Source of the DNA: an uncultured Pseudomonadota bacterium
GTDB lineage: Bacteria > Pseudomonadota > Gammaproteobacteria > Burkholderiales > Rhodocyclaceae
Assembly: GCA_903888645.1 (NCBI GenBank)
Contig: CAISUK010000353.1
Location: 1-35,285 of the forward strand
Length of the DNA: 35,285 nucleotides
Direction: 5' to 3'
The translations under genes and the position numbers were made by a program. Position 1 is the first letter of the stretch, and every line of letters starts with the position of its first letter. The notes below the pieces were generated by a model. That model saw only the letters and a list, made by a program, of their open reading frames with translations. It made no database searches and was not told the DNA's origin. Below are positions 1,035 to 23,430 of this stretch, piece after piece.

Positions 1035-1673
1035 TCAGCCCGGCAGTAGATTGTGATCCATGGCGTAGCGGACCAACGCTGTCAGATTGTCGAGATTCAT
1101 CTTGCGCAGCAGGCGCGTCTTGTGTGAGCTGATCGTTTTGGCGGAGAGCGATAGTTCTTCAGCGATCTGCGCGCCGCTCTTACCGCCGACGAGCATTTCG
1201 AAAACCTTGTATTCACGATTTGACAGTCGCGCATGCGGCGCCTTTTCGGCGCCTTTTCGGCTGAATTCCATCGCCAGGCGTTCGGCAATAATGGGACAAA
1301 TGTAACTGCCGCCGGCCGCGAGGCGGCGAACGGCGGCAACCAGGTGCTCGCCAGCATAGTCCTTGGTTATGTATCCCTGGCAGCCTGCATTTAGGGCCCG
1401 CGCCGCGTATTGCTCTTCGCGGTGCATGGTCAGTGCCAGTATTTTCAAGGTCGGCGCGATTCTGCGGATATTGCTGATCATCTCGATGCCGTCGCGTCCC
1501 GGCATCGTCAGGTCCAGCACAACCAGATCCAGCGCATGATCACGGATAGCCGCAAACACTTCGGCACAGTCGGCGGCTTGAGCGACGACTTCAAAGTCGA
1601 CCTCTTCACAGAGCAGCCAGACGACTCCCTGGCGGAACATCGGATGGTCGTCGGCTACGAGTAATCGGATCAT
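1035..1673 (-). CDS. NarL/FixJ-family response regulator (REC + LuxR HTH)
   Basis: MIRLLVADDHPMFRQG..., phospho-acceptor LVVLDLTMPGRDG, C-terminal LSNREYKVFEMLVGGKSGAQIAEELSLSAKTISSHKTRLLRKM HTH. Confidence 0.95.
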   Translation of the reverse strand: MIRLLVADDHPMFRQGVVWLLCEEVDFEVVAQAADCAEVFAAIRDHALDLVVLDLTMPGRDGIEMISNIRRIAPTLKILALTMHREEQYAARALNAGCQGYITKDYAGEHLVAAVRRLAAGGSYICPIIAERLAMEFSRKGAEKAPHARLSNREYKVFEMLVGGKSGAQIAEELSLSAKTISSHKTRLLRKMNLDNLTALVRYAMDHNLLPG

Positions 1674-3439: not shown

Positions 3440-5167
3440 ATGGCACCAGACAATCGGCAACAGGGGAATCGGCGCGGTCTTTTCGGACTATTTTTTGCGC
3501 TTACAGTCGCGGCATCCCTTCCCGCGATGGCGCAATCGTTCCGCGTGCAGTGTCCTGCTGGAACGGCGCTGCACCCTGCCATACCGGCCAATGATGGCAG
3601 CGTGGCGGTTGCGGACCGGGCGAAATACGCTACTGTCACTGCGCCGCTGCCCAGGACGGATGGCCTGCTCAACCCAACGCCGGCTATGGCCAACCCCGGG
3701 ATCAAGTGCCAGCAGTTGTCCGGCGGTGACGGCTTCGCCTCGATGGGCGACGGAACCCAGACTTACCTGTTCTCCTTCGGTCCGTTGTCTGGTCTCGGAA
3801 ATATCGTCAAGGGCCTGCCCGGAACGACGACAGCATCGGAGTTCCTCAAGAGCAACCTCGATAGCGCGAACGGGCCGCTCAGCACAGACGGAGTTTTGGC
3901 CGCAGTAAAGATCGGCGCTCCCGATAGTTTGAGTTATTCGTTCAACGGTGCCATCGGCTTGGTGCCGGACGTCCAGGCGGCTACCGTGCAAGACCCGACC
4001 ACCGGCCTCAATACGGCTCCCCTCGGTACCGAACTCACGGGCCACGTCGATCCGCGCCTGATCATGGATGTCGGCGTCATGAACGGCAACATTCCGGCGC
4101 CGATGATCGCCATCGACGAAGGTGATGAGCTCTTCCTGACGCTGACCAACGTTGGCATGATCATGCGTCCCGACCTGTTCGAGCAACACACCGTGCACTT
4201 CCACGGCTATCCGAACGCCTCGGCCTTCTACGACGGCGTGCCCGACGCCTCGGTGGCCATCAGCATCGGCGGCAGCTTTACCTACTATTACCTGGCGCCC
4301 GAAGCCGGGACCTACATGTGGCACTGCCACATTTCACCGCCCGAGCATTTGCAAATGGGCATGGTCGGGCAGTTGTACGTACGGCCCAGGCAGAACTCTG
4401 TCGCCTCCGGCAGCACGCTTTACGCGGCACTTAGCACCGCCAACCTGCCTGCGAATCTTGTGACCAAGTGCGGCGCCAACGACATTTTCTGTTCGACGCA
4501 AACGCCGCCGGCAAACACTGCAGCAGCCGACGGTCATCTGTACGCCTACAACGACGGCGACGGCACGACGGCCTATGACGTCGAGTACCCGATCCAGTTG
4601 ATGGGCTTTGATCCGAATTTCCACTTCGTCGGAATGACCTTCAACCCCGAATCCTTTGCCGACAACAAGGACAAGTTCTTCCTGGTCAATGGCCGCAGCT
4701 ACCCGGATACCATCAATCCGGCTCCGCTGAGCACGCAGGCGACCGACGGAACGGCGCACTTCTCCCAGCCCCTGCCGACGATCGTCAATATTCCCTGCCT
4801 CAGTCCGGCGAACGGTGTCTGCAGCGACGGCAAAGCACTGCTGCGGATCTCCGACCTCAACGTTACCGAGTACCACACCTTTGCCTCGCTGGGAATTCCG
4901 ATGCATGTGGTCGGTTACAACGCCCGCCTGCTGCGCGACGTCGACGGCAACAACACCGACTACAAAACGAACTCCGTCCACCTCGCCGGCGGCGAGTCGG
5001 CTGACGTAATCCTCGAAGCGGCCGGCGCCAGGCCCGGTCAGAAGTTCTATCTCTACGCGGCCGAACTCGATCACCTGTCGAACGACGCGGAGAACTTCGG
5101 CGGCATGATGACCGAGGTAAATATCTGTAGCGCCGGCGTCAACCCGACGACCAAGCTGTGCTTGTAA
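3440..5167 (+). CDS. Exported multicopper oxidase-like protein 1 (Cu motifs retained in N-terminal half)
   Basis: RBS AGAGGAGGT upstream; signal peptide LFGLFFALTVAASLPAMAQ; QHTVHFHGYP and GTYMWHCHISPPEHLQMGMVGQLYV copper-ligand motifs; C-terminal half has degenerate motifs (YHTFASLGIPMHVVGY, YAAELDHLSNDAENFGGMMTEV). Confidence 0.9.
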   Translation: MAPDNRQQGNRRGLFGLFFALTVAASLPAMAQSFRVQCPAGTALHPAIPANDGSVAVADRAKYATVTAPLPRTDGLLNPTPAMANPGIKCQQLSGGDGFASMGDGTQTYLFSFGPLSGLGNIVKGLPGTTTASEFLKSNLDSANGPLSTDGVLAAVKIGAPDSLSYSFNGAIGLVPDVQAATVQDPTTGLNTAPLGTELTGHVDPRLIMDVGVMNGNIPAPMIAIDEGDELFLTLTNVGMIMRPDLFEQHTVHFHGYPNASAFYDGVPDASVAISIGGSFTYYYLAPEAGTYMWHCHISPPEHLQMGMVGQLYVRPRQNSVASGSTLYAALSTANLPANLVTKCGANDIFCSTQTPPANTAAADGHLYAYNDGDGTTAYDVEYPIQLMGFDPNFHFVGMTFNPESFADNKDKFFLVNGRSYPDTINPAPLSTQATDGTAHFSQPLPTIVNIPCLSPANGVCSDGKALLRISDLNVTEYHTFASLGIPMHVVGYNARLLRDVDGNNTDYKTNSVHLAGGESADVILEAAGARPGQKFYLYAAELDHLSNDAENFGGMMTEVNICSAGVNPTTKLCL

Positions 5168-5178
5168 GGAGAACAGGG

Positions 5179-6786
5179 ATGAAAACCAATCAATCGCTCA
5201 AGTCGATCCTGCGGGCCGTGAATGTCGCAACGGTCTTCGTCGCGGCGACCTTCCTGTCACCGTCGACGCAGGCCGCTGCCCCGGGGATCACCGGGCCGAG
5301 CTTCGATCTGGTGGCGGTGGCGGGCAATATCAGCCAACCCGACGGCGCCACGATCTACTCCTGGGGCTATGGCTGCAACAGCGCGCCAGGCGGCTTCGCG
5401 CCTGCCGCCATCACCACTGCCACCTGCCCGTCAGGACAAATGCAGTTGCCCGGCCCCACTTTGATCGTCCACAAAGGCGACCAAGTCACGGTCACGCTAC
5501 ACAACAACCTCCCCGGTGCCGCTGGCAACACTTCAGTCCTGTTTCCCGGATTCAAGGTGACGGCGACTGGCGGCTCGCCTGGCCTGCTGACCCAAGAAGC
5601 CTCCAATATCAATGCGGTGACCTACACCTTCGTTGCCGATAGCGAAGGCACTCACTCCTACTACAGCGGTACCCAGGGAGACCTGCAGGTGGAAATGGGG
5701 CTGTTCGGGGCGCTGATCGTGCTGCCGAACTCGACGATCAACTCGCCGGCCTGTGCTAATACCCCGGTGAGCGCCGCGCAGCCGATCAATCGCGGTTCGG
5801 GGGTTCCTGGCGACTTCCGGCTGCCGGCGACCAACGGCGTCCACGCCGCCTACGACCAGGCGTCGTCCTGTTATGACCGCGAATACCTGATCCAGACCTC
5901 CGAGATCGATCCGCGTATCCATGAACAGGCCGCCGCGCAGGCCGGCATCGCTTGTACCTTACAGACCGGCTGCATGACGGTCGAGACCGAGCCCTACCAT
6001 GCGGCCTACTTCCTGATCAACGGCCGCTCGTTCCCGGATGACCTGGACCCCAATTACGCGCCGCAGTATCCGAACCAACCCTACAACGCCAACCCGCACC
6101 TGCATCCGGGCGAAGTCACGCTGGTACGGATTGTCGGCCAGGGCCGCATGCAGCATCCCTTCCACGAACATGCCAACCACCTGCGCATCCTGGCGCGGGA
6201 CGGTCAGATGCTGCTGAACAGCGCTTCCCACCTGTCAGGACCGCTGCTATTCACGACGACCACCAGCCCTGGCCAGACCATCGACGGCTTGTTCGAGTGG
6301 ACCGGCAAGAACCTCAACTGGGACGTCTACGGTCATGGCAATGGCATCGCCATGTCGGGTGGTGATGTCGATATTACCGATCCTGCGAAGCAATGCGACA
6401 CCAACGGCTATTTCACGTCGAATCCGGCAGCGAACAACTTCTTCGAATGGTGCGGAGATCACAAGAGGCCGCTCGAATTCAAACCCTTCGGCAGCGTTGG
6501 CAGCGGCGGTCCGGTGACATTGCCGGATCCAAACATCCTGGTGAACGGCGCCTGGTACGGCGGCAGTCCCTATCTGGGGCCGGATGCGACGGGACGCTCC
6601 GTCGGCCCGACACCGATACCGCCCTTTGGCACGGTCGCGAACAGTCCGAGTAGCGAGGCGGGTTTCGCTTTCATGTGGCATTCCCACAACGAACGCGAAA
6701 TCACCACAAACAACATCTTCCCGGGCGGGTTGATGACGATGATGCTGGTCGACCCTTGGGTCTTCCTGATCAACGAAGCGAATTAA
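5179..6786 (+). CDS. Exported multicopper oxidase-like protein 2 (Cu motifs retained in C-terminal half, no HCH Cys)
   Basis: AAGGAGAACAGGG-ATG start at 5179 (the ORF track starts at 5158); signal peptide ...VATVFVAATFLSPSTQAA; QLPGPTLIVHKGDQVTVTLHNNLP cupredoxin signature; RMQHPFHEHANHLRIL and FMWHSHNERE...GGLMTMMLV. Confidence 0.88.
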   Translation: MKTNQSLKSILRAVNVATVFVAATFLSPSTQAAAPGITGPSFDLVAVAGNISQPDGATIYSWGYGCNSAPGGFAPAAITTATCPSGQMQLPGPTLIVHKGDQVTVTLHNNLPGAAGNTSVLFPGFKVTATGGSPGLLTQEASNINAVTYTFVADSEGTHSYYSGTQGDLQVEMGLFGALIVLPNSTINSPACANTPVSAAQPINRGSGVPGDFRLPATNGVHAAYDQASSCYDREYLIQTSEIDPRIHEQAAAQAGIACTLQTGCMTVETEPYHAAYFLINGRSFPDDLDPNYAPQYPNQPYNANPHLHPGEVTLVRIVGQGRMQHPFHEHANHLRILARDGQMLLNSASHLSGPLLFTTTTSPGQTIDGLFEWTGKNLNWDVYGHGNGIAMSGGDVDITDPAKQCDTNGYFTSNPAANNFFEWCGDHKRPLEFKPFGSVGSGGPVTLPDPNILVNGAWYGGSPYLGPDATGRSVGPTPIPPFGTVANSPSSEAGFAFMWHSHNEREITTNNIFPGGLMTMMLVDPWVFLINEAN

Positions 6787-6802: not shown

Positions 6803-9800
6803 ATGACTTCCAAGAAAACCATGTTTGGCCTGATGCGTGCCGGTCTGGCTGCATGCAGTCTTCTCCTTGCCTCAGGTGCGGTGCAGGCGCAGAGCGCGGT
6901 CACGCTGACCGCGGCGCCGACCACCGCCAATCTGCCCGATGGACAGAGCGTGCCGATGTGGGGCTATATCTGCGGCGATTCCCTTGCGACGCCGGTGGCC
7001 TCGACAAATGCGACATGCACCTCGATGAATGGGGTGGGGCAGACCGGAAAGTCCTGGCAGCCGCCCTTGATAAGGGTTCAGGCTGGAACATCCGGGTTTG
7101 CATCTTTGACGATCACGCTGAACAACCAGTTGAGCTTTGCCGGCGTTGCCGTGCCGACGTCGATCGTCATCGACGGTCAGGCCGGTGGCGGCCTTGGCGA
7201 TTCATCGGCACGCATGCCGAGCCCGGCACACGCGCCTTACGGAACGACCTGGCCGGGAACGCTCGGCACCACCGGCCCGAACGACCCGGTTTTCACGCCG
7301 CCAGACCAGGGCCAAGGGCGCGTCCGCTCGTTCGCCACCGAGGTCGCGGTTGGGGCCACCACAAACAATGCTCTCACCTGGAACAAAATGCGTCCGGGTA
7401 CCTACCTGATTCATTCCGGCACCGAGCCGTCGATCCAGCATCCCATGGGCCTTTACGGCGTGCTGGTGGTCACCGAAACGACGGCGACCAGCGCCTACGG
7501 AACGGCTTACGATGCCGATGTTCCTTTGTTGTTCAGCGAGATCGATCCGGTCCAGAACAATGCGGTGACCGCGGCAGTAGGGACGACCGGGTTCAGCGAG
7601 ACCGACACTTGGGTCGGGCCGGGCGCTGCCTGCAAGAATGGTGCGGCCGCCTGCTATCCGCCGGCCGTCAACTATTCGCCGCGCTACTACCTGATCAACG
7701 GCACCTCCTTCGACCGCACCAATGTGACCGGGTCGACCCTCGTGGTGCCCGCTCCCGGCGTTAGCGGCAACGTGCTGCTGCGCATCGTCAACGCCGGCCA
7801 GCGCATGCATGCCCCGGCAGTCGTCGGCGCCAACATGACGTTGCTGGCCGAGGATGGCAACAAGGTTTCCGGTGGTACGCGCATCCAGGCCTCGGTTCCG
7901 ATGCCACCGGGCAAGACCTTCGATGTCGCGATTAAGCCCACCCAGATTGCGGCGGGTATCTATGATGCGGCGACGCTGCCCGTCTATGACCGCCAGCTCA
8001 GCCTGTCGACCAACAACCAGCGTGATGGAGGGATGCAGGCCTACATCGCGCTGAATGGCGGTGCCCCCTCAGGTGCCGGGTCCGCCGCCTCGGCGGTGGT
8101 CCTCAGCGCGGCCGACAAGACCTACTATTGCGTTGCCGGCACGACCCTATCGATTACGGACGTGTCCAAGGGCGTACTCGGCGGCGCCGTTGGCGCCAGC
8201 GGGGCATCGCTCGGCGTGGTGTCGCTGGGTGCCGGCGACAACTTGGCCTTCAACCCCGACGGAACCTTTACCTACGCGCCTGCTGCGGGAACGGTTTGCG
8301 GCGGCAGCTTTGCCTACAACGTCAATGGAACGCAAGCCCATACCGCAACCATCGCACAATGTGACGCGAATTCCTCAGCCGCAAGTGGATGCAAACTCGC
8401 TGCGGTGCCTGTCGCCAATGCAGTCACGTTCAACAGCAACGTCGCGTCGCGCTACGCTTCACCGCCTCCCGGCCTGATCGCCAGCGTCACCAACCTCTCG
8501 GGCTTGACCCTCAAAGTCAACGCGCCGACCAACGTTGTTGGCGGAACCGTAACGCTGAACGCCGACGGCTCTTTCGTCACAACGCGGTCGTGCACCGCGC
8601 CTTGCAGCGTCACATTCGCCTACAGCGTCAGCAACGCGCAGAACGTTTCTTCGAATTCGGCCCCGGTTACCGTCAATTTCCCAACGGGCAGCGGTTTGGC
8701 CGTTGCAGTCAAAGACGGCCCAACGGGCCTTCCGGTCAGCGACTATCGCTGGATCATCGAGGAAGACCGCACCTTCTGGGTCGACCCCAAGTGCCAGGTC
8801 AATTCAGCGGATCCACTGGTCCGTCCGTCGACCTGCCCGCCGCTGCCGGTGGAAAGCCTGGGCTACAACTTCCATTCCGCGCAAATGCCCGTCGTCGCGC
8901 AGGGTTGCGTCGGCACCGTTTCATGCGAAGCGGGCCAGAAGCTGCAAGGTCAGGACGCTGTATGCGATGTCGGCAACGGCGCCTGCCGCACCGGCGCAAC
9001 GCAGAAGACCCCGGTCAACCTCGCCGACGTCCATCTCGATCCGAACAAGCGCTACTTTGTCTCCATCCTCCCGGGCGACGGAATCAACCCGACCATTTCC
9101 GGTTACACCGGTACGCCGCAGGGTTGCGGCGCTTACACCGGCGCAACTGGCCAATGGGCGCTCTATGACCCGGCCTCCGGCAGTGCCGGCAATTGCGGCC
9201 ACGAAATGGGCGGTACGCAAGTGGCGCCGGGCGCGACAGCTATCGCCATCAACCTGCAGCAAACACCGCTGCCGAGCGCCAAGATCGCCGTCTTCGTGTT
9301 CGAGGACGACAATCCTGTGAACGGCGAAAACGATGCCGGTGGCGGCGTCGACGTGATCGCCCCGAACGAGCCTGGCCTCGGTGGTTTCGAGATCAAGTTG
9401 TTCGACCAGGCCGGCCAGCTTGGCGACAACACCGGCCAGATCACCTATGACATGTTCAACCAGCCGGTGAGCAACTCCTTGGCAGGCTTCATCGATCCGC
9501 TGACCAATCTCGACGCCTGCCCGATCACCGCGCGCAAGGACGGAGTGGTCGGCATGGTACCGACTTGCCCGAAGTTCGAGGCGGACGGCAAGACGCCATC
9601 ACCGCTGGCCGGCCAAGCCGTGATCGCCAACCTCTACCCGGGTCTCTATGAAATCCAGGCCTACCCGGCGGCCGACCGCATCGCCAAGGGCGAACAATGG
9701 TTGCAGACGAATACCCTCGATGGCGGCAAGCCGCACGAGGCCTTCATCAAGCCCAATGAGCCCGGCTACTTCCAGGAATTCGGTCCTGGCGGCTTCCACG

Positions 9801-12800
9801 TCTCGATCGGCTTCGCCAACCCGAAGATCATCAATGATCGCAAGGCCGGCTACTGCGCTTCGACCCTGAACGCGGGCGGCGCAGCCTCGTGCAATAACAC
9901 GCTGACTGTGGAAGTCACCAACAACCACATGAGCCGCACGCCGGACCAGCGCACCTATGACAGCGAGTCCTACGACCACTACAACTTCACGCAGTGCTAC
10001 GTTTCCGTCGGCCCGGCCGATGCCGAGGACTTCGCGTTCCAGCCCTGCGTTCTGACGGCTGGTACCGATGGCAAGACCCACGCCACGGCGACCTTCACGG
10101 GCATGCCGGCCGGCACCTTCAAGATGACGGTCTTCGACCAGTGGAACGACATCATGCTCGACGGCCTGGTTGGTACGGTCGAGATCGGCGCCGGGACGAC
10201 AGTCAAGAAGTTCCCGGTCACACAATGGCGCACCAACCTGTACACCCGCACCTTCATCGATGATCCCAAGGCGGCGAATCCTGGTGTCTCGGACGACTCG
10301 AAGCCAGGCCTCGCTCTGGTGAACATCAACATCCGCTATCGCGATGGTTCGGTTGCCTTCTTCAATAACACCGACCTGAACGGTTACGCCGCCTGGAATG
10401 AGGTTTTCCCCTTCATGAACTGGTTGGTGGTCGAAACGACGCAGACCCGCTACAAGCCAACTTGGGTGCACAGCGTGTACGACGCAGGTGGGCCGGTGGA
10501 CGGCTCCACCGGTTCTACGATGACTTCAACGATCGCTGCAAATCTGGCAAATACCGACGCACGAGTACCGTTGCCGACCGACCTGCGTTTCCCGGGAGCG
10601 AAGTACTGCGACAGCGCCGATTGCCCAGCAAACGATGGCTTCAACGGCAAATCGTCGGGTGCGCTCTTCCCGGGTCAGGGTTTCTTCAGCAACACCATGG
10701 GCTGGCAGGGTCTGCTCGGCCAGAACACCTTCATGGAGTTTGGCGTCAAGCCGTTCAAGAAGGCTGATCCGGTCGCGCTGGCACCAGCAGAAAACGGCGG
10801 CATCCACGGCATGGTGGTCTATGCGTCCACGCGTCCGTTTGACGATCCCTCGTTGCTGCTGCAGCTCTCCTGGGAGCCGGGCGTCCCTAATGCCACGATC
10901 AACCTCTACAACAAGACAACCGATGCCCTCGGAAACGAGGTGCTGAAGCTGGTCGATACGACGCAGAGCGCGAGCTGGGACGATTGGGCGCAAGGTTTCC
11001 GCAAGGACGGCAACGGCAACCTGCTGAAGGCCGCCGACGGCAATTACATCCCGAACATGAACTGCCCGGGCCAGGATGCCACCAGTCCCTTCTTTGCCAC
11101 GCTGAAGAACAGCAAGGAATACCTCGATCCGGACCGCAAACCGCTCGCCTACAACTCTCAATTCAAGTGCTACGACGGCTGGTCACAACTCAACCAGGCA
11201 CAGCCGGCACCTTACGACGGCTTCTACAAGTTCCCGAGCGTCACAGCGATCGACCCAAAGACCGGCAAGCCGGCCAAGAGCAATTGCACAGGCTGCACTG
11301 TTAACCCCGACGACGGCACGCCGATGCTGCCTGCCGGCAAGTACGTGGTCGAAGTCGTCATGCCGCCCGGCTACGAGCTAGTCAAGGAAGAGGACAAGAA
11401 CATTCTGATGGGCGACGTGATGGTCGCGCCGGTCAGTCAGCAGTTCGCCGGCTTCGGCAACGTCTTCATCAGGCCCGACCAGGCGGCGGTGAATTCCGTT
11501 TATAACGCGGCGAACCCGGGCGGCTTGAACAAGACCGTCGATCTCGGTTCCAAGACCTTCCCGCGTCACGAGGGCGATACCGGCAGCATCGAGACCTACT
11601 GGCCGTGCGTCGGCGCGCTGCGTCAGGTACCGGACTTCAACAGCGAGTTCCCCGGGGCCGGCCAGGCCGCTCCGTTCGCCGGCGCGATGCGCCACCTGTG
11701 CGACCGCAAGGAGATCACGCTATCCGACGAAAGCTCGGCTCTTGCAAAGTTCTACCTGTTCAGCTCGACCCACATCGCCGGCCACTTCACCGGCACCATC
11801 ACGAACGACTTTGCCTCGGAATTCGATCCGTTCTCGCCGCAATTTGGCGAGAAGTTCGGCCCGCCCAATTTGCCGGTCGGCATCCGCGATTTCAACGGCA
11901 ACGAGGTGGCGCGGGTCTATTCCGACCAGTGGGGCATCTACAACGGCCTGTATTTCTCGAGTTGGTCGGTCAATCCCCCGAACCCGACCGGCTATGCGCC
12001 GCAGATGTCGATCGCCTGCATGAACGACCCGGGCCCGATCCTGGACACACGTACCGGCTCGCCGACGCTCGGTCAGATGATCACCGACCCGTCCTACAAC
12101 CCGGCCTACAGCAACTTCTGCTATGAGCAGCCGTTCATGCCTGGCACGACCACCTACATGGACACGCCGGTCATCCCGACGCAAGCCTTTGCCGACGGCT
12201 ACAACCTGCCGGATACCGAGTACCCGGACGGTACGCCGGCGATCAAGACGGTGGTCAATAGCTCCACGACGATCTCCATTCCAGGCCCGTGGGTCGAGGC
12301 TGCCACGACAGCGGCTAACGCCACGGCAAGCTTTACGATTTCGGGCGTCAATCGCTGCCAGAGCGGTAACTGCAATAACCGGACGACGCTGACTTTCCCG
12401 ATAGGCACTGTGCAGTGCATGTCCAATGACACGGGTGGACCGAACTGCAACGACAGCGCCTCAGATACTCGCAACACTAACGTTGCAGCCTACATCCGCA
12501 GCCACATTGTTGCGCTCATGGGGACAGGCTACACGGCTTCCGGCAGGGGTCCTAACGTAACGGTGACCGCTCCGGCAGTCGGCTCGAGTTATAACGGTAC
12601 TTTCGTGGTGAACGCCACGAGCGGCCTGGGTACTCCGACCGCCCCGGTGCAACTTACAAACGGCGCAGATGCTTCCACCGCATCGGCTACCGGCATCACC
12701 ATCACGGCACTTGGCGACAAGGCGGTGCAGAACCCCAATTTCGCGGGTCCGAACGCGACCACGGCGCCTTACAACCAGAAGACGATCGTTCGCCACTATG

Positions 12801-15800
12801 GCTTCGGCGCTGCGGGCACGGCTTCCCTGGTGGCACCGGATGGCTCGACCACGGCCAATTTGGCGATCAACAGCTGGGCCGACGCGACGATTTCGGCTAC
12901 CGTGCCGTCGCTGTCTGCCGCCTTCAACTGCAGCGTGCAGCAGATCGGCGCTCCTGTCACCAAATGTGGTCAACTGGTGATCACCCGAGCCGACAACGGA
13001 AAGCGCTCGATTGACGCCATCACCGTCACCGTCGGCGGCAGCGCGCCCTGGATAGCAACGCCGACCGGCGTGACGCCGCCAACTGGCAAGACTGTCCACG
13101 ACTACGCCGCGGCCTTCGGGCGCATGAACCTGTCCGGCAACGGCAATGGCAGCGTTACCAGCCCGATCCAGGTCGCCATCGATAGCGCAGGGCCGGGCGA
13201 TTTGATCTTGGTGGCGCCGGGGAACTACCACGAAAACCTGATCATGTGGAAGCCGGTCCGCCTGCAAGGTGTCGGTGCGGCCTCCGTGACGATCAATGCC
13301 GATGCACACCCGGCGGGTCACATGGATCAGTGGCGTCGCCAGATGGTCTGCGTATTTGGTTTGACGCTGCAGGGCGTTCCCAACCTCGGCAATCAGCAGG
13401 GCGCCTTCGACCCGAGCGGCCAGTACTCCTGCCCGGACGCGATGTTCATTACGGGCGACCGTATTCCGTTCGAAGCGATCACCGGCTGGCAGGCCTCCGG
13501 CAACGGCAACCTCGCGCAGGTGCTGCAGGAGCCGACGCTGCTGGGTGCCTATGAAGGTGCGGGCATCACCACGGTGGGTCGTGGTGTGCGCGCTCCGGCT
13601 GGAGACCCGTTCTTCCTCGGAAACGATCCGGCGGCCGCGGGTGGTTTCCCGAATGGTTCGCGGTACCTGACCGATAGCAACACTGACTGCACCATCAGCA
13701 CGGGAACGGCGGCTTTGAATGGCGGCAACTACGGCACCAGTAATTATCGCTGCAACCCGTCGCGCGTCGACGGCCTGTCCGTCCTCAACAGCTCGCAGGG
13801 TGGTGGTGGATTGTTCATTCATGGCTGGGCACATAACCTTGAGGTGGCGAATAACCGCATCTCCTCAAACCACGGCACACTGGCCGGCGCCATCAACCTG
13901 GGCAACGGCGAAACCCCGCCGGTATTTTTGAACGACGGCACGACCTGCGGTACTGGTGTCGCGGCAACTGCGCCACTGTGCCCGCCGATTCCAGGCGGTA
14001 CGCCGACCGGCGCGGCGATCCCCTTCGGCTTCAATACTTTCGTTCGTATCCACCACAACATGCTCTACAACAACGCCTCGATCGGTGATGCTCTCTTCAC
14101 GGGCACGCCGGCAGGCGCGGGCGGCGTTACCGTCAGCGCCGGTGGTGACAACTACCAGATCGACCACAACTGGATTGCGGGCAACCTGACCACCGGCGAC
14201 GGTGGCGGCATCCAGACGCTGGGCGTGACCTTCAACGGCAAGATCAACAACAATGTCATCCTGTTCAACCAAAGCACCAACCCGACCCTGCCGACCAATG
14301 GCGGCGGCATCGTGATTCAGGGTGCCAACGAACCCCGCACCTTCCAGGGCACGGAGTGCGGTGGCGCCACCGACCACGACTGCCCGCCCGGCTTGGGCGA
14401 CGGCACCGGTGCCGGCCTGGTGATTGACGGTAACCTGATCTACGGCAATAGCGCCGAGAGTGGCACTGGCGGCGGCATCGCCCTGGAGCAAATCAACGGC
14501 AGCGAGGTGATCGCCTTTCCGACGGCGCCCGCCAACTGGTACGGCATCACGCTGATCAACAACATCATCGCCAACAACGTTGCCGGCTATGACGGCGGCG
14601 GCGTGTCGATGCGCGACGCGCTCAAGCTCAGCTTCATTAACAACACCATCGTCTCGAACGACACGACGGCCTCTGCCGGCGTGCTGTTCAAGACCTTGGG
14701 TGCCATCAACTCGAGCAGCCCGCCCCCGGGATGCAACGCGGTGACTGATCCAACGGCGCCGCAGAGTCCGAGCTGCCTGGGTCGTGACGCGCCTCATGGC
14801 CCGCAGCCTTCCGGCCTGGTGACGATGGCGCACACGCAGAACCTGAACGACGCGATCGCTGGCATTGTCGTCACGGGCACCGGCCCAAGGCTGACTTGCC
14901 CTGACGGGTATGGCTACGCGGTCAACGGCGCTCTCGGCCTGACTAATGGGGACTGCATGAAGTTCTCGCGGCCGGCGCTGGTGAACGACTTGTTCTGGCA
15001 GAACCGCAGCTTCCACGTCAATATCTCGAGCCGTGGAACCGGCCTGCAGTCTCAGCAGAATCTGGTCGTGATTGCCCCGGGGCTGGCTACCAATAGCACA
15101 CCGCTCTCTTCGCAGACGGCGACCGGTCAGTGCCCGACAGGTGCGTCGTATTGGGATATCGGCTTGCGGACTGACAACGTGGACGCTGGCCTGCTTTGCC
15201 ACCCCGGTGTGGGTGTGATCGGGTGCGCAGGCAACGGTAACAGCCTCGTTGTCACCAACTCGATCCTGACAGGCACTGGCGACATCGGCACCGCGGAAGA
15301 GACGGTTGCAAGCGCCACCAACAAGGTGGGCGTAGCCAACCCGGTCGTCGCGCAGGTCTGCAACGGCGCTCGCGTGCCCCCGGAGTATTGCGCCGTCGGG
15401 GCGGTAAACGGCCAGAACGGCGCGGCATCCTGCACGGGCTTCAACGCGCCTCCGGGAGCGTCGGAGAGCACCAGCACCTCGCCGCTGTTCGTCTTCAAGG
15501 GTATCCAGCCGACAGCGACGGTCGATGAAGGCCACAACTGGCTGAACCTGATATACGGTCCGCTGACCTTGAACCGCACGGCAGTGGGACAAGCGAGTTC
15601 CCCGCCGGAGTTGATGATCGCCTCGGCCGCCACCGGCACAGCGGGCGGCGCCTACTCGATTCCGGCGACTTCTGTCGCTGTCAATGGCGGGTCGAACTCG
15701 GTCGCCCCAGCCACGGACTTCTTCGGAAATCTGCGGCCCAGGACGACGGCCAATCCGGCTGACATCGGTGCCGTGGAATGTCAGGGCAGCGCTTGCAGCG

Positions 15801-16744
15801 GTTCGATTCCGGCACCGATCGCGAGTGTCACTGGTGGGCCACTGGCCTTCGGAAACGTCGCGACCGGCACGACCAGCCCGTCCAGGCAGTTGGTGCTGCA
15901 AAACAGCGGTAACGCGAGCTTGACCGGCATCATCCTAGCGTTCTCTTCGCCGAGCTACTCGCGGCCAGCGGGAACGGTAGGTGGGACTTGCACCACCACG
16001 CTGGCGCAGGCGAGCACCTGCACGATCAACGTGGTGCTCTCGCCGAACGCACTGGGTTTGGTCAATGCAACGCTGACTATCACGGCGAATGCTACGGTGA
16101 CCGGTTCGCCGGTGAGCCTCAGCGGTACGGGTGTTGCGCCGCCGACGTTACCTGCCTTGGGCGTGCTTGACACCTTCAGCCGCGCCAACGCGAATACGCT
16201 GGGTACGAGTTCGTCGGGAACTGCCTGGTCGCAGGTGACCTTACTTGGGGCGGCCGCGATCCACGTCGCATCCAACCAAGCGCTTTGCAGCGGCCTTGGC
16301 TGCGCACTGGGGGGTTATGCCTACCTGGGCAACGGGACGACCAGTGGTGTATACGGAAGCCGACAGGGTGCGGGAGTCACATTCACGACAGCTCCGCAGA
16401 ACAACTCAGCGCTGCTGCTGAAGGTGACCGGTGGTAGTGCGACTGTTGGCGCCAACGGCGTTCGCGTACGCTACAACGGCGGTACGATCTTCGTCGAAAC
16501 GACCACCAACTCGGGTTTCAGTTACACCCAGGCGAGCAGCTTCGCAGCGACCCTCGCAGCCGGCCAGACGCTGGGCGCGACGGTGGATGGCACTGGGTTG
16601 GTCAATGTCTGGGGCAACGGTGTCTTTGTCGGTAGCGCCCAATTGCCCAATGTGGCTCTTTGGACGACGGGCGGCGGGCGGATCGGCTTGCTCGTGCCCT
16701 CAGGGACTTCGACGATGGACAACTTCGTGGGCGGTAACTTCTAA
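6803..16744 (+). CDS. Giant (3313 aa) exported multidomain protein: degenerate multicopper-oxidase-like N-terminus, Ig/SdrD/SpaA-like regions, TIG-like region, parallel beta-helix, choice-of-anchor-D-like and C-terminal lectin-like domain
   Basis: Single uninterrupted ORF; signal peptide FGLMRAGLAACSLLLASGAVQAQ; MCO-fold remnant GTYLIHSGTEPSIQHPMGLYGVLVV; FNPDGTFTYAP Ig-like repeats; VFEDDNPVNGENDAGGGVDVIAPNEPGLGGFEIKLFD (SdrD-like); IQVAIDSAGPGDLILVAPGNYHENLIMWKPVRLQGVG and INNNVILFNQS/GGGI repeats (beta-helix); GPLAFGNVATGTTSPSRQLVLQNSGNASL (anchor-D-like). Confidence 0.85.
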   Translation: MTSKKTMFGLMRAGLAACSLLLASGAVQAQSAVTLTAAPTTANLPDGQSVPMWGYICGDSLATPVASTNATCTSMNGVGQTGKSWQPPLIRVQAGTSGFASLTITLNNQLSFAGVAVPTSIVIDGQAGGGLGDSSARMPSPAHAPYGTTWPGTLGTTGPNDPVFTPPDQGQGRVRSFATEVAVGATTNNALTWNKMRPGTYLIHSGTEPSIQHPMGLYGVLVVTETTATSAYGTAYDADVPLLFSEIDPVQNNAVTAAVGTTGFSETDTWVGPGAACKNGAAACYPPAVNYSPRYYLINGTSFDRTNVTGSTLVVPAPGVSGNVLLRIVNAGQRMHAPAVVGANMTLLAEDGNKVSGGTRIQASVPMPPGKTFDVAIKPTQIAAGIYDAATLPVYDRQLSLSTNNQRDGGMQAYIALNGGAPSGAGSAASAVVLSAADKTYYCVAGTTLSITDVSKGVLGGAVGASGASLGVVSLGAGDNLAFNPDGTFTYAPAAGTVCGGSFAYNVNGTQAHTATIAQCDANSSAASGCKLAAVPVANAVTFNSNVASRYASPPPGLIASVTNLSGLTLKVNAPTNVVGGTVTLNADGSFVTTRSCTAPCSVTFAYSVSNAQNVSSNSAPVTVNFPTGSGLAVAVKDGPTGLPVSDYRWIIEEDRTFWVDPKCQVNSADPLVRPSTCPPLPVESLGYNFHSAQMPVVAQGCVGTVSCEAGQKLQGQDAVCDVGNGACRTGATQKTPVNLADVHLDPNKRYFVSILPGDGINPTISGYTGTPQGCGAYTGATGQWALYDPASGSAGNCGHEMGGTQVAPGATAIAINLQQTPLPSAKIAVFVFEDDNPVNGENDAGGGVDVIAPNEPGLGGFEIKLFDQAGQLGDNTGQITYDMFNQPVSNSLAGFIDPLTNLDACPITARKDGVVGMVPTCPKFEADGKTPSPLAGQAVIANLYPGLYEIQAYPAADRIAKGEQWLQTNTLDGGKPHEAFIKPNEPGYFQEFGPGGFHVSIGFANPKIINDRKAGYCASTLNAGGAASCNNTLTVEVTNNHMSRTPDQRTYDSESYDHYNFTQCYVSVGPADAEDFAFQPCVLTAGTDGKTHATATFTGMPAGTFKMTVFDQWNDIMLDGLVGTVEIGAGTTVKKFPVTQWRTNLYTRTFIDDPKAANPGVSDDSKPGLALVNINIRYRDGSVAFFNNTDLNGYAAWNEVFPFMNWLVVETTQTRYKPTWVHSVYDAGGPVDGSTGSTMTSTIAANLANTDARVPLPTDLRFPGAKYCDSADCPANDGFNGKSSGALFPGQGFFSNTMGWQGLLGQNTFMEFGVKPFKKADPVALAPAENGGIHGMVVYASTRPFDDPSLLLQLSWEPGVPNATINLYNKTTDALGNEVLKLVDTTQSASWDDWAQGFRKDGNGNLLKAADGNYIPNMNCPGQDATSPFFATLKNSKEYLDPDRKPLAYNSQFKCYDGWSQLNQAQPAPYDGFYKFPSVTAIDPKTGKPAKSNCTGCTVNPDDGTPMLPAGKYVVEVVMPPGYELVKEEDKNILMGDVMVAPVSQQFAGFGNVFIRPDQAAVNSVYNAANPGGLNKTVDLGSKTFPRHEGDTGSIETYWPCVGALRQVPDFNSEFPGAGQAAPFAGAMRHLCDRKEITLSDESSALAKFYLFSSTHIAGHFTGTITNDFASEFDPFSPQFGEKFGPPNLPVGIRDFNGNEVARVYSDQWGIYNGLYFSSWSVNPPNPTGYAPQMSIACMNDPGPILDTRTGSPTLGQMITDPSYNPAYSNFCYEQPFMPGTTTYMDTPVIPTQAFADGYNLPDTEYPDGTPAIKTVVNSSTTISIPGPWVEAATTAANATASFTISGVNRCQSGNCNNRTTLTFPIGTVQCMSNDTGGPNCNDSASDTRNTNVAAYIRSHIVALMGTGYTASGRGPNVTVTAPAVGSSYNGTFVVNATSGLGTPTAPVQLTNGADASTASATGITITALGDKAVQNPNFAGPNATTAPYNQKTIVRHYGFGAAGTASLVAPDGSTTANLAINSWADATISATVPSLSAAFNCSVQQIGAPVTKCGQLVITRADNGKRSIDAITVTVGGSAPWIATPTGVTPPTGKTVHDYAAAFGRMNLSGNGNGSVTSPIQVAIDSAGPGDLILVAPGNYHENLIMWKPVRLQGVGAASVTINADAHPAGHMDQWRRQMVCVFGLTLQGVPNLGNQQGAFDPSGQYSCPDAMFITGDRIPFEAITGWQASGNGNLAQVLQEPTLLGAYEGAGITTVGRGVRAPAGDPFFLGNDPAAAGGFPNGSRYLTDSNTDCTISTGTAALNGGNYGTSNYRCNPSRVDGLSVLNSSQGGGGLFIHGWAHNLEVANNRISSNHGTLAGAINLGNGETPPVFLNDGTTCGTGVAATAPLCPPIPGGTPTGAAIPFGFNTFVRIHHNMLYNNASIGDALFTGTPAGAGGVTVSAGGDNYQIDHNWIAGNLTTGDGGGIQTLGVTFNGKINNNVILFNQSTNPTLPTNGGGIVIQGANEPRTFQGTECGGATDHDCPPGLGDGTGAGLVIDGNLIYGNSAESGTGGGIALEQINGSEVIAFPTAPANWYGITLINNIIANNVAGYDGGGVSMRDALKLSFINNTIVSNDTTASAGVLFKTLGAINSSSPPPGCNAVTDPTAPQSPSCLGRDAPHGPQPSGLVTMAHTQNLNDAIAGIVVTGTGPRLTCPDGYGYAVNGALGLTNGDCMKFSRPALVNDLFWQNRSFHVNISSRGTGLQSQQNLVVIAPGLATNSTPLSSQTATGQCPTGASYWDIGLRTDNVDAGLLCHPGVGVIGCAGNGNSLVVTNSILTGTGDIGTAEETVASATNKVGVANPVVAQVCNGARVPPEYCAVGAVNGQNGAASCTGFNAPPGASESTSTSPLFVFKGIQPTATVDEGHNWLNLIYGPLTLNRTAVGQASSPPELMIASAATGTAGGAYSIPATSVAVNGGSNSVAPATDFFGNLRPRTTANPADIGAVECQGSACSGSIPAPIASVTGGPLAFGNVATGTTSPSRQLVLQNSGNASLTGIILAFSSPSYSRPAGTVGGTCTTTLAQASTCTINVVLSPNALGLVNATLTITANATVTGSPVSLSGTGVAPPTLPALGVLDTFSRANANTLGTSSSGTAWSQVTLLGAAAIHVASNQALCSGLGCALGGYAYLGNGTTSGVYGSRQGAGVTFTTAPQNNSALLLKVTGGSATVGANGVRVRYNGGTIFVETTTNSGFSYTQASSFAATLAAGQTLGATVDGTGLVNVWGNGVFVGSAQLPNVALWTTGGGRIGLLVPSGTSTMDNFVGGNF

Positions 16745-16786: not shown

Positions 16787-17311
16787 ATGAAACTGGATGC
16801 AAATATGAACGGGACTCGAACTCGGGCGAATCACAGTGTCTGGGTCAATCGGGTTCTTCTGGTGCTTGGCGTGACGGTCGCGACCAGCAGTTTCGCCCAA
16901 GCCTATGCTGCCATGAGTGACGAATCGGCTGCGGACGCCAAGTTATCCACACGTCAGGTGCAGCAACACGCTGGTGGGGCAGGCATCGATCATCGTATCA
17001 AGCTGCTGGCTGCGGAACTCAGCCTCGACCCCGGGCAACAAGCGGCGGTTCGCCGCTTGCTCCTCCAGCAGCGCGAGCAGACCCTGAAGGTATGGAGGAA
17101 CGATGCGGTCCCGTCGGCAGTTCGCATCAAGGCCACACATGGGATTGCCGACCGGACTGCCGAGCAGATTCGGGCCTTGCTGAACGATGAACAACGCAGC
17201 CGCTACATTCAGCCTCGGAACCGCGAGGCGGAGCAAAACCTTGCCTCAGGAGATGTCGAGTCGTGGATGGCCGGCAGAGCGCCGACCGGATCGGTGGCGG
17301 CGCATGAATGA
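16787..17311 (+). CDS. Small exported Spy/CpxP-like helical protein
   Basis: N-terminal signal (VNRVLLVLGVTVATSSFAQAYA) and LSLDPGQQAAVRRLLLQQREQTLKVW...TAEQIRALLNDEQRSRY, resembling LTxxQ-type periplasmic proteins; ATGA overlap with next gene. Confidence 0.6.
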   Translation: MKLDANMNGTRTRANHSVWVNRVLLVLGVTVATSSFAQAYAAMSDESAADAKLSTRQVQQHAGGAGIDHRIKLLAAELSLDPGQQAAVRRLLLQQREQTLKVWRNDAVPSAVRIKATHGIADRTAEQIRALLNDEQRSRYIQPRNREAEQNLASGDVESWMAGRAPTGSVAAHE

Positions 17312-17631
17312 AGCACCTTGCGCGCTTGAAAAGGGATATGGAAATGAATGAATCGAATGGTGCGTATCTTCGTCGGGAATGGTACCGCAACGGGTTGGCA
17401 GGCCTGATTGGAGCGGTCGTCTTGGTAGGCACAGCGGCGGGCGGCGAAAACCCAGTGGTGGACGGGGCGAGCGAGAATGCCAACGCGGCATCCCGCGTGT
17501 CTCCGCACGCGCTTGCTGCCCTGCGGCGAGCGCAGCAGGGTGACGCTTCTGCGCCCCGGGTCGGTCTCCAGTCGCAGATGCAGAAGGACGCGGCGCGGCG
17601 TCACCTCGCCCCAGGCAGACGCGGTACTTGA
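17308..17631 (+). CDS. Small membrane-anchored or exported hypothetical protein
   Basis: ATGA overlap with upstream gene; hydrophobic NGLAGLIGAVVLVGTAAGG; overlaps downstream CDS. Confidence 0.55.
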   Translation: MKHLARLKRDMEMNESNGAYLRREWYRNGLAGLIGAVVLVGTAAGGENPVVDGASENANAASRVSPHALAALRRAQQGDASAPRVGLQSQMQKDAARRHLAPGRRGT

Positions 17632-18194
17632 CCATGGGTGCGTTTTCGTCGTTCACCGGTAGACGCTGCTTCTCCTTCATGGCGGCGATGGTCGGCGCAT
17701 TGTGGGCGGCGACTGCCCTGGCGGGGGGTGCCGCGGAGCAGTCGCCAGTCGCACCGACGAATCCACCTGCCGAGGCCCACGGGAATGCCGGAGGCGCAGC
17801 GTCTGCCCAGGCGAGGCATTCTCCCTACCACTCGATGAGAATGACCGACAAGGCGAAAAAGCAGTATGTGGCCATGTGGGGCGTCAATAAATTGCGTGTG
17901 AGCTCGACCAATTCGGGCAACCTGATCCGTTTCACCTATCGGGTCGAGGATCCGGTGCTGGCCAAGACGCTCCTCGACCGTAGCGCGACGCCCTATATGT
18001 ACAGCCCCAAGGCGCAGGCCGTACTTCAGGTGCCGGTCATGGACAAGGTAGGCCCGCTGCGTCAGTCGATGTCGCCAAAGGCAGGCCAGGATTACTGGAT
18101 GGTGTTTTCGAACAAGGGAAACCTTGTCAGGCCGGGCGACCGGGTCGATATCCGGATCGGCACGTTTCAAGCCGATGGCCTGATGGTTGATTGA
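17628..18194 (+). CDS. Exported conserved-looking hypothetical protein
   Basis: Signal peptide FSFMAAMVGALWAATALAGG; mature part MWGVNKLRVSSTNSGNLIRFTYRVEDP...DYWMVFSNKGNLVRPGDRVDIRIG; overlaps upstream stop (TTG 17628 or ATG 17634 start). Confidence 0.65.
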   Translation: MTMGAFSSFTGRRCFSFMAAMVGALWAATALAGGAAEQSPVAPTNPPAEAHGNAGGAASAQARHSPYHSMRMTDKAKKQYVAMWGVNKLRVSSTNSGNLIRFTYRVEDPVLAKTLLDRSATPYMYSPKAQAVLQVPVMDKVGPLRQSMSPKAGQDYWMVFSNKGNLVRPGDRVDIRIGTFQADGLMVD

Positions 18195-18228: not shown

Positions 18229-18990
18229 ATGAAAATGAAATTGTCGATTGCCGCTTGTCTGATTTCGCTGACGACCTCGGTCGCCCTGGCTGACACGCTG
18301 ACCGCGGCACAGATAGCCGACCGCAACGTGGCGGCCCGGGGCGGGGCGAACGCGTGGCGGACGGTCACTAGCATCACCATTTCCGGCCAAATGGATGCCG
18401 GCGGCGAGCAAGAAGCCAAACTACCTTACGTGCTGACCATGAAGCGTCCGCACAAGAGCCGCCTGGAGCTGCGATTCCAGGATAAGGCTGCCGTCCAGGT
18501 CTTTGACGGCACGCAGGGCTGGAAATGGCGTCCATTCCTCGGCCGCAACGAGGTCGAGGCATACTCCGCTGCCGAGACCAAGTCTGCTGCCGACGCCGCG
18601 GAGCTGGACGGTCCGCTGGCCGACTACGCCAAGAAAGGGACGGCGATCGAACTGCAGGGAATGGACAAGGTCGAGGGCAACCAGGCCTACAAGCTGAAAC
18701 TGACGATGAAAGACGGCAGTGCCAGGCACCTTTGGATCGACGCCAAGACCTTCCAGGATGTCAAGATCGAAGGTGAGCCGCGCCGCATGGATGGCAAGTT
18801 GCGCAACGTTTTCGTCTATAGCCGCGACTTTCGCAAGGAGGGTGGCCTGACCGTCCCCCATGTGCTGGAGACAGCGATCGAAGGCATCGCCCAGACGCAC
18901 AAGATGACCGTTGACAAGGTCGCCGTCAACCCGCCTGTCGACGACGGCATGTTCGGCAAGGCGACAGTCCAGGTGGCCAGTTCGCGTTAA
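18229..18990 (+). CDS. LolA-like / outer-membrane lipoprotein-sorting-type periplasmic protein (paralog A)
   Basis: Signal peptide MKMKLSIAACLISLTTSVALA; LTAAQIADRNVAARGGANAWRTVTSITISGQM; beta-rich periplasmic protein with GTQGWKWRPF. Confidence 0.7.
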   Translation: MKMKLSIAACLISLTTSVALADTLTAAQIADRNVAARGGANAWRTVTSITISGQMDAGGEQEAKLPYVLTMKRPHKSRLELRFQDKAAVQVFDGTQGWKWRPFLGRNEVEAYSAAETKSAADAAELDGPLADYAKKGTAIELQGMDKVEGNQAYKLKLTMKDGSARHLWIDAKTFQDVKIEGEPRRMDGKLRNVFVYSRDFRKEGGLTVPHVLETAIEGIAQTHKMTVDKVAVNPPVDDGMFGKATVQVASSR

Positions 18991-19138
18991 TCGGGCCCTC
19001 ACCTGTTCCTTTCCCCGCAAGTGGGGCGAGGGGCAGCTGATGCGAGCGTTTTAGAGTTTCATGCGATTGCCGTCCGGTGCGCAAGGCTCGAGATCCGTGT
19101 AAGGTTTTGCTGTTCGAAACTGTCCAGAGAGAATATCG

Positions 19139-19981
19139 ATGTTCATGACATTTGGGCGGGGAGCCTTGCTGGCGCTCCTGGCAGTGGCGCTGACAAGCCA
19201 GGCGGCCAACGAGGTGTCGCTGACCGCGGAACAGATCGTGGAGAAGAACGTGGCGGCGCGCGGCGGGCTCGACGCGTGGCGCAAGATCGGGACGATGGCC
19301 TGGCTAGGCCATGTCGAGACGCCGAACGTGCCGGGCGGGTCGATGCCCTTCATCCTTGAGTTCCGGCGACCCAACCAGACCCGATTCTCGGTCGATCCGC
19401 AGGGGCAACCCGGCATGCGCGTCTTCGACGGCAGCAACGGCTGGAAGGTGCGACCTGCCGGTAACGGGTCGGCGGACGTTCAGCCCTACGCGAACGAGGA
19501 ACTGAAGGCGGCGCGCGATGGCGCCGGTCTCGACGGGCCGCTGATCGACTACCAGACCAAGGGCATCGGCGTCGCCCTCGACGGCCCCGATAACGTCGAC
19601 GGACAACCGGCCTATCGCCTCCTAATCAAGTTGCCATCGGGCAGTCGCCAGCATGTCTGGGTGGACGCCAAGACCTTCCTCGATATCCGTTCCGACCGCG
19701 AGGCGGTCGACAAGCAGGGTCGCACTGGCATCATCTGGACGTCCTACCGGAATTTCCAGTCAGTCGACGGCCTGCGGATTCCGATGACGATCGAACGCAG
19801 CGCAGCGGGCGCCAAGGTGACAGACATGATGGTCATCGACCGCGTCGTCCTCAATCCGGATATCCATGCGCAGGCCTTCGCCAAACCCGATGTGCCGGTG
19901 GCGCGGCGCAAGGTGGTGGTCGATGCCCGCAAGCCGCCACCTGGCGCACGAGACCAATCCGGCGCGACCGGTGCCAGGTGA
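19139..19981 (+). CDS. LolA-like / outer-membrane lipoprotein-sorting-type periplasmic protein (paralog B)
   Basis: LTAEQIVEKNVAARGGLDAWRKIGTMAWLGHV aligns by eye with paralog A; GSNGWKVRPA; signal peptide at N-terminus. Confidence 0.7.
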   Translation: MFMTFGRGALLALLAVALTSQAANEVSLTAEQIVEKNVAARGGLDAWRKIGTMAWLGHVETPNVPGGSMPFILEFRRPNQTRFSVDPQGQPGMRVFDGSNGWKVRPAGNGSADVQPYANEELKAARDGAGLDGPLIDYQTKGIGVALDGPDNVDGQPAYRLLIKLPSGSRQHVWVDAKTFLDIRSDREAVDKQGRTGIIWTSYRNFQSVDGLRIPMTIERSAAGAKVTDMMVIDRVVLNPDIHAQAFAKPDVPVARRKVVVDARKPPPGARDQSGATGAR

Positions 19982-21624
19982 TGACGGCGGGATTGGCGGT
20001 TCGCCACGGGTTGCTCGGCATAGTATGGGCGCTGGCCGCATCGACCAGCGGTTGGGCTGCCGCGACGCTACCCGACAAGGTCGGCGAAGCCATCTTCCGG
20101 CAAGGCATGTTGGCCTCAGGCCAAGCACTGGTGGGAACCCGCGCTGCCGACACCCGCGTTGCGGGTGCGGCGGCGGCCTGCGTCAATTGCCATCGGCGCA
20201 GCGGCCTGGGCTCGAAAGAGGGGCGAATTGACATTCCGCCCGTCACCGGGCGCTATCTGTTTCATGCGAGCTCCGAGAAATCTGACGATGTTGACCTTCC
20301 TTTCGTCGAGACCATGCGCATCAATCGCGAAGCCTACACGGACGAGGCCCTCGCCCGGGCGATACGTGAGGGGCTGGACGTGCAAGGAAAGCCGCTGGGC
20401 GACCTGATGCCACGTTTCGAACTCGGCGACAAGGACATGGCCGGCCTGATCGCTTACCTAAAGGGGATGGACCATCCCCGGCAGCCCGGGGTCACCAGCA
20501 CGGTTCTGCATTTCGCCACCATCATCACGCCGGACGCCGATCCGCTCAAGCGTCGCGGCATGCTCGACGTGCTGGAAAACTACTTTGCCAGCCGCAACCG
20601 GGTGCAGATGGCTCCAGGCGCGCCATTGCGCGCTTCACGCAAGATGATGTTCATGGTGCATCGCCGCTGGCAATTGCACGTCTGGGAGCTGACCGGTCCA
20701 GCCGAAGCGTGGGAAGACCAACTCAGTAAGCATCTGGCCGCGGAGCCGGTGATGGCGGTGATCTCGGGTCTGGGCGGGCGCAACTGGGCGCCCGTCCAGG
20801 CCTTCTGCGAACACCAGTCGGTGCCCTGTTTCTTTCCCAATGTCGAAGTGCCGCCGGCCAACGCCGACAGTGATTTCTACTCGACTTATTTTTCCCAAGG
20901 CCTGCTGCTGGAGGCAGCCTTGATCGCCAAGCGGGTTCTCGATCCGGCAGGCGAAAAGGCGGTCATGTCGGTGCTGCAGGTCTACCGCGCCGGCGACAGC
21001 GGTGAGGCAGCAGCAGCGTCCCTCGCCGCGGCGCTGAAGAATCGCGGTATCACGGTCCGCAGCCATGTATTGGCCAAAGTCTCGGCGGGTCAGGAGGTCG
21101 CCGCTGCGGTGCGCCAGGCCAAGCCCGCCGATGTCATGGTCCTCTGGCTGCGCCCGCCCGACCTGGCAGCGCTTGGCAGTGCCACGACGGTCCCGGATAC
21201 GGTCTATCTGTCCGGCCTGATGGGCGAACTCGAACACGCGCCGCTGCCTGCCGATTGGCGGGAGCGCAGCCATATTGCCTACCCGTTCGATTTGCCTGAG
21301 CGGCGCCGTGTGCGTGTCGATTTTCCGCTCGGCTGGTTCCGCATGAAGCAAATCCCGGTCGTCGATGAACGTCTGCAGGCCGATACCTACCTCGCCTGCG
21401 GCTTGGTGGCCGAAACCTTGAGCCACATGACCGACGCCTTCATCCGCGACTATCTGGTCGAGCGGCTTCAGGACATGCTTGCGCACCGCATCATCACCGG
21501 CTATTACCCGCGCCTGGCGCTCGCCCCGGGCCAGCGCTTCGCTTCCAAAGGTGGTTACATCGTCCGTTTCGCCCAGCCGAGCGGGCCGCAGGTGGTCGCT
21601 GAAGGCGACTGGATCGTGCCCTGA
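19978..21624 (+). CDS. Exported monoheme cytochrome c fused to a periplasmic-binding-protein-like domain
   Basis: Single CXXCH (CVNCHRRSG), downstream LMPRFELGDKDMAGLIAYLKGM typical of class I cytochrome c axial Met region; then ~370 aa alpha/beta region (TVLHFATIITPDADPLKRRGMLDVLENYF...). Overlaps the upstream stop; likely ATG at 19981. Confidence 0.8.
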   Translation: MMTAGLAVRHGLLGIVWALAASTSGWAAATLPDKVGEAIFRQGMLASGQALVGTRAADTRVAGAAAACVNCHRRSGLGSKEGRIDIPPVTGRYLFHASSEKSDDVDLPFVETMRINREAYTDEALARAIREGLDVQGKPLGDLMPRFELGDKDMAGLIAYLKGMDHPRQPGVTSTVLHFATIITPDADPLKRRGMLDVLENYFASRNRVQMAPGAPLRASRKMMFMVHRRWQLHVWELTGPAEAWEDQLSKHLAAEPVMAVISGLGGRNWAPVQAFCEHQSVPCFFPNVEVPPANADSDFYSTYFSQGLLLEAALIAKRVLDPAGEKAVMSVLQVYRAGDSGEAAAASLAAALKNRGITVRSHVLAKVSAGQEVAAAVRQAKPADVMVLWLRPPDLAALGSATTVPDTVYLSGLMGELEHAPLPADWRERSHIAYPFDLPERRRVRVDFPLGWFRMKQIPVVDERLQADTYLACGLVAETLSHMTDAFIRDYLVERLQDMLAHRIITGYYPRLALAPGQRFASKGGYIVRFAQPSGPQVVAEGDWIVP

Positions 21625-23421: not shown

Positions 23422-23430
23422 GAGAACACC

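Follow-up and report, generated by a model that had tools for sequence, protein, structure and literature searches.

Two-domain multicopper oxidases (MCOs) assemble as homotrimers, the three units closing a ring in which domain 1 of each subunit builds a trinuclear copper centre together with domain 2 of the following one, and ceruloplasmin presents the equivalent arrangement in a single chain. In ceruloplasmin, the trinuclear centre is found between domains 1 and 6 and the T1 sites are in even domains; in the bacterial six-domain MCOs, domains 2 and 3 enclose the centre and domain 2 has the T1 site (PMC3600357). Gene clusters encoding several MCO-like proteins have also been described. Three tandem MCO genes were noted in S. 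lithotrophicus ES-1 (excerpts of PMC5566968). According to excerpts of a second paper (PMC12016527), the proteins of the ES-1 cluster Slit_1812-1818 were present in larger amounts on magnetite than with Fe(II)-citrate in proteomics, and the third protein of the cluster is larger, lacks MCO motifs and carries adhesin- and polysaccharide-lyase-like domains. The same excerpts place similar clusters mostly in Burkholderiales, including Paraburkholderia and Ralstonia, and call their role unknown.

The window (i.e. the whole stretch of 35,285 nucleotides that was analysed) carries a cluster that resembles the make-up of Slit_1812-1818 as given in these excerpts: two cupredoxins with MCO motifs, a larger third protein without them and a cytochrome. 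Only SCO1, part of the ES-1 cluster, differs, no SCO1 gene being seen within the window. From this gene content, and from a Sideroxydans sp. locus (L091) with the same system as the window, the cluster is taken as homologous to Slit_1812-1818. The link to magnetite would hold for the window by analogy, as it concerns protein abundance in another species, for a cluster of the same make-up. Homologous clusters are already known from ES-1. In the excerpts of PMC12016527 and PMC5566968, a shared active site, a paralogy of three units, a split-gene form and a secretion link were not found, and the word "secretion" has no occurrence in PMC12016527. The features of the window are the following.

1035..3040, minus strand: response regulator and histidine kinase, divergent, possible regulators
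3440..5167, plus strand: MCO1, 575 aa, exported two-domain cupredoxin unit (Cu-oxidase_3, 6e-16)
4187..4363, plus strand: ligand stretch H250 to M308 of MCO1, inside domain 1
5158..6786, plus strand: MCO2, 542 aa, exported two-domain cupredoxin unit (Cu-oxidase_3, 2e-13)
6163..6171, plus strand: H336 and H338 (HEH) of MCO2, trinuclear, aligned to domain 2 of 2zwn/3g5w
6679..6687, plus strand: H508 and H510 (HSH) of MCO2, trinuclear, aligned to IFHDH of 2zwn with a weak local score
6803..16744, plus strand: the giant, 3313 aa, ATG start, signal-peptide-like N-terminus
6893..8062, plus strand: head of the giant (aa 31-420), a pair of cupredoxin domains lacking copper ligands, limits approximate
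8063..8737, plus strand: Cadherin/Ig-like domain(s) of the giant (about aa 421-645; Cadherin_5, 5e-7)
8738..12328, plus strand: Cys-rich arm of the giant with CNA-B/SdrD-like domains (about aa 646-1842), from AF2 and Foldseek
13070..15796, plus strand: beta-helix-like region of the giant (about aa 2090-2998), choice_anch_Q and weak NosD-type signal, limits approximate
15809..16132, plus strand: ASH / choice-of-anchor D domain of the giant (about aa 3003-3110; NF012200, 1e-12)
16133..16741, plus strand: variable C-terminal module of the giant, absent from most homologs
16787-17311, plus strand: small exported protein, weak LTXXQ (Spy/CpxP-like) signal (E 0.5)
17628..18194, plus strand: p188, conserved exported protein, located after the giant or the copper-less unit
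18229..19981, plus strand: two LolA-like exported proteins, downstream conservation in related loci
19978..21624, plus strand: mono-heme cytochrome c, CVNCH at aa 68, plus a periplasmic-binding part; domain make-up as in MofC-like proteins
28367-28730, plus strand: tmRNA gene, betaproteobacterial, tag ANDERFALAA

The copper ligands are divided between MCO1 and MCO2. Domain 1 of MCO1, which aligns with domain 1 of 3g5w, has a complete T1 site (H250, C296, H303, M308) and four of the eight trinuclear histidines (H253, H255, H295, H297). The remaining four (H336, H338, H508, H510) are found in domain 2 of MCO2, which aligns with domain 2 of 2zwn, FIFHDHVDTHVTAGGKHPGG being placed opposite the WHSHNEREITTNNIFPGG stretch with a weak local score. 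The T1 and trinuclear ligands of MCO1 and the trinuclear ligands of MCO2 are invariant in the aligned rows (79-81 sequences). Jointly, the two proteins thus hold the T1 set and the eight trinuclear histidines of an MCO, four per domain, while neither reaches eight by itself: domain 2 of MCO1 has no such histidine and domain 1 of MCO2 has lost its ligands. In the joint alignment, the majority residues at the ligand columns of MCO1 are T/L/P/Y/S/G/Q/L in MCO2 and T/V/V/E/S/G/Q/L in the giant (S/Q/L at the T1 columns), and those at the H336/H338/H508/H510 columns of MCO2 are A/L/Y/P in MCO1. Because two-domain MCOs build their centre between subunits, neither MCO1 nor MCO2 would be able to do so alone, but the pair would. 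On this ligand pattern, a trinuclear centre shared between MCO1 and MCO2 is very probable. The preliminary description had taken the two proteins for two separate oxidases, a view that has to be abandoned, as each holds half of a trinuclear centre.

By profile comparison, MCO1, MCO2 and the giant head are paralogs of two cupredoxin domains each (hhalign: 1e-31 for the giant head against MCO2, 2e-17 for MCO1 against MCO2 and 5e-10 for the giant head against MCO1). The single ORF of about 10 kb first described directly downstream of the two MCO genes was confirmed at 6803..16744 on the plus strand. Since homologs (about 2500-3750 aa) occupy the equivalent position in dozens of genomes, it is a real gene and not a chance ORF. 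A head model was obtained with AlphaFold from a profile of aa 28-660 built on 42 homologs (mean pLDDT 79). Among the best 50 Foldseek matches listed for this model, all are MCOs, copper nitrite reductase or MCO-related clotting factors, with E 2e-17 for CotA and a target TM of 0.64 for the two-domain MCO 3g5w. The N-terminus, described as a degenerate cupredoxin/MCO region, is thus of MCO fold and not unrelated to cupredoxins. Searching PDB sequences with the giant by itself had given a single, non-significant MCO match, superseded by the profile and fold searches.

The head has the MCO-type cupredoxin fold without its copper ligands. The preliminary description had found nearly all HxH motifs lost; over its 3313 residues, the giant has in fact no HxH, HCH, CxxCH or LPxTG at all. 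The last strand of its domain 2 is poorly aligned, the sequences being cut there, and the absence of HxH in this strand is taken from the motif scan. With these motifs absent, a heme protein or sortase-anchored identity for the giant was rejected, and the lack of LPxTG noted earlier holds. The locus resembles ceruloplasmin and the bacterial six-domain MCOs (MnxG, MofA, OmpB) in having six cupredoxin domains, one trinuclear centre and the other sites lost (PMC3600357). The six-domain bacterial MCOs are moreover secreted and linked with a cytochrome and SCO1 (excerpts of PMC5566968). They and ceruloplasmin are one chain, however, and the units here are three: no single chain of the ceruloplasmin or MnxG/MofA type and no natural fusion was seen among the genes of the system. 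The T1 site is also in a domain of the first type, unlike in ceruloplasmin and the bacterial six-domain MCOs. This position and the domain plan are those of 3g5w (a Nitrosomonas europaea blue copper oxidase) and 2zwn, in which both halves of the site are nevertheless in one chain, whereas the window has them in two chains, with a third paralog that has neither. Long frames that suggested a natural MCO1-MCO2 fusion in four loci (L053, L079, L035, L066) proved to be overlapping frames extended from stop to stop and were rejected. No fused form was found in a phylum-wide search with MCO1, where solely the own genome and one other (G348) were above the strict cut.

The arm of the giant is adhesin-like. 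For aa 660-1842, AF2 gave a pTM of 0.82, and Foldseek aligned parts of the model with TIE, SdrD and pilins of the SpaA/BcpA type (E 1e-10 to 1e-6); the global TM-scores are low because single domains alone match. These partial matches indicate a CNA-B-like fold, the SdrD_B family itself being above cut-off in the ortholog L119 and below it in the window giant. The likeness to SdrD/CNA-B adhesins and SpaA-type pilins is one of domain fold; the giant differs from them by having no sortase motif, by its fusion to a cupredoxin head and by many conserved cysteines. It has 65 Cys; in the stretch from aa 57 to 2853, most are conserved. The motifs first quoted, including the closely spaced Cys, are present; CDVGNGAC (721/728) and CTGC (1495/1498) are conserved, but CSGLGC (3162/3167) is not. 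The conserved arm cysteines are compatible with disulfides. Conservation falls beyond about aa 1850 and then returns in the region with beta-helix-type signatures, for which L119 has a weak Beta_helix match. Domain, fold and conservation evidence therefore support the Ig/cadherin-like, SdrD/SpaA-like and beta-helix-like parts proposed at first. The proposed lectin-like C-terminus received no family support and corresponds to the variable module, for which a 41% BLAST match was found in L100. In the last 70 residues listed for the giant homologs, no C-terminal anchor was recognised, and the ends differ.

The preliminary description had called for homologs with the same gene order. MCO1, MCO2 and the giant follow one another on one strand in all 80 related loci, a set fetched with MCO2. 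From the 399 genomes of the order, strong matches to the giant head and to MCO2 occur in the same 7, with a strong-match cut that was chosen after seeing the lists. None of these 7 genomes has a strong giant-head match without the MCO genes, i.e. no homolog devoid of the upstream oxidases was found among them. Broad matches were not counted: those to MCO2 (192 of the 399 genomes) are for the most part ordinary MCOs matched over one domain, and those to the giant are mostly cadherin-like domains. Neither the giant nor MCO1 is duplicated in the own genome. The system is carried by Pseudomonadota (including Burkholderiales), Acidobacteriota and MAGs labelled Myxococcota, the phyla being partly mixed in the MCO2 tree, and the giant is conserved long-range across phyla. 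The system is common among soil members of the Burkholderiales and Acidobacteriota, in which its genes can carry a "hypothetical" annotation.

Two genes replace the giant in five genomes (L099, L100, L111-L113): one for the arm precedes MCO1 and MCO2, and one for a copper-less unit follows them, with p188 behind it. Even with the arm as a separate gene, the copper-less unit thus stays behind MCO2. In an MCO2 tree rooted on one split-gene form, the split forms fall outside the fused ones, on long branches. The p188 gene is found in 40 of the 80 loci, a count limited by the flanks, and is also present in these split-gene relatives. A subtilase gene lies between p188 and SCO1 in two of them (L111:14297-16651, with cadherin-like repeats, and L112:3890-6331). 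SCO1, a copper chaperone family in Pfam, occurs in 14 cluster loci, including L121. A mono-heme cytochrome is linked in many clusters; for that of the window, the domain description of MofC-like proteins was used (excerpts of PMC5566968).

Several clusters lie close to type II secretion genes. Genes annotated gspG, gspF and GspE/PulE, plus a secretin, come after the cluster in Paraburkholderia (AP028202.1); homologs of these genes are directly upstream of MCO1 in C. metallidurans CH34, C. basilensis, Pandoraea, Trinickia, Sideroxydans sp. and others. The closest secretin shares a contig with the cluster in 7 of 9 genomes with the system; in the two others, including the own genome, the assembly is fragmented and the secretin falls on a different contig. 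In the own genome this is a separate short contig (C356, 1-6555), which carries GspE, secretin and pseudopilin homologs of the linked type II system. As relatives of these secretins are also present in genomes that lack the system, this evidence is one of linkage and not of exclusivity. An atypical type II system is nonetheless a probable export route for the complex, and for the giant, in which no anchor was seen, the genomic linkage makes it the likeliest one. An extracellular MCO reportedly tied to type II secretion is a single large MCO, versus three genes here.

These data lead us to favour, with reasonable rather than high confidence, one secreted oxidase of three units that combines a shared site, a copper-free giant head, an arm and export. 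Sequences and predicted folds establish the paralogy, the ligand pattern, the gene linkage and the type of arm; how the units would assemble, be exported, be tethered and act on a substrate is deduced from these. MCO1, MCO2 and the giant head would assemble as a pseudo-trimer of paralogous two-domain units, in which one trinuclear centre of the three possible would survive, at the junction of MCO1 domain 1 with MCO2 domain 2. The head would be the copper-free third unit, and we find it rather probable, from its paralogy, that it closes the ring. SCO1, in the clusters that have it, would probably assist in loading the copper, and the linked atypical type II system would probably export the complex in folded form. 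The cadherin/CNA-B/beta-helix arm would then tether the enzyme extracellularly to a surface, a matrix or a mineral. Electrons would enter at the T1 site of MCO1 and pass to the trinuclear centre, where O2 would be reduced. The likely substrate would be extracellular or solid-phase Fe(II)/Mn(II), with phenolic or humic material as the alternative; that it is a metal is a tentative proposal, slightly short of an even chance, and the carriers are mostly soil heterotrophs, not known iron oxidisers. Somewhat more doubtful still is the full combination of a split, obligate hetero-oligomeric MCO with an arm of about 2900 residues, dedicated type II export and oxidation of solid minerals.

The scaffold first proposed, docking two catalytic subunits at the surface, agrees with the strict linkage and the adhesin-like arm, but the head looks like a third member of the enzyme, since MCO1 and MCO2 each hold half of the trinuclear centre. 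In a related arrangement, MCO1 and MCO2 might form the shared-site enzyme by themselves, as a heterodimer or a 3+3 assembly, and the head would only dock that enzyme to the arm. The catalytic ligands, all in MCO1 and MCO2 and none in the giant, speak for it. We nevertheless hold it to be unlikely: the head is a full two-domain paralog whose strong matches are never found apart from the pair, and two-domain MCOs of this fold form a ring of three units.

The complete, conserved trinuclear centre of O2-reducing type and the absence of a multiheme conduit from the window likewise make it quite improbable that the cluster is an electron-transfer module comparable with Geobacter OmpB. Its cupredoxins would in that case pass electrons between the linked cytochrome and material outside the cell, O2 reduction being secondary, as the MofC-like cytochrome linked in many clusters and the need for OmpB in Fe(III) oxide reduction (excerpts of PMC5566968) could suggest. 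That degenerate relics or independent surface proteins share the locus by chance is already disfavoured and hardly credible. Copper sites are indeed lost in the giant and in the non-ligand domains, but the ligands are invariant, the gene order is constant and the giant is conserved across phyla.

If true, the three-unit oxidase with its split site would parallel ceruloplasmin with three chains in place of one and show a homotrimeric enzyme diversified subunit by subunit. It would also account for the missing motifs in one of the three ES-1 cluster proteins, and neither MCO1 nor MCO2 would be expected to be active when separated. The system may bear on extracellular oxidation of iron, manganese or humus.

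Some further features were observed. Small proteins similar to the LTXXQ-type one that follows the giant occur in few loci (L026, L075, L083). Downstream of the cluster, the window encodes, at 21748-22227 and 22912-25638, a hemerythrin-like protein and a [2Fe-2S]/molybdopterin oxidoreductase pair; L098 likewise has a hemerythrin-like gene behind its cluster. Finally, MCO2 has four more histidines (H314, H316, H333, H341), beyond the four expected ligands, that are invariant in 81 sequences and possibly form a second metal or substrate site.
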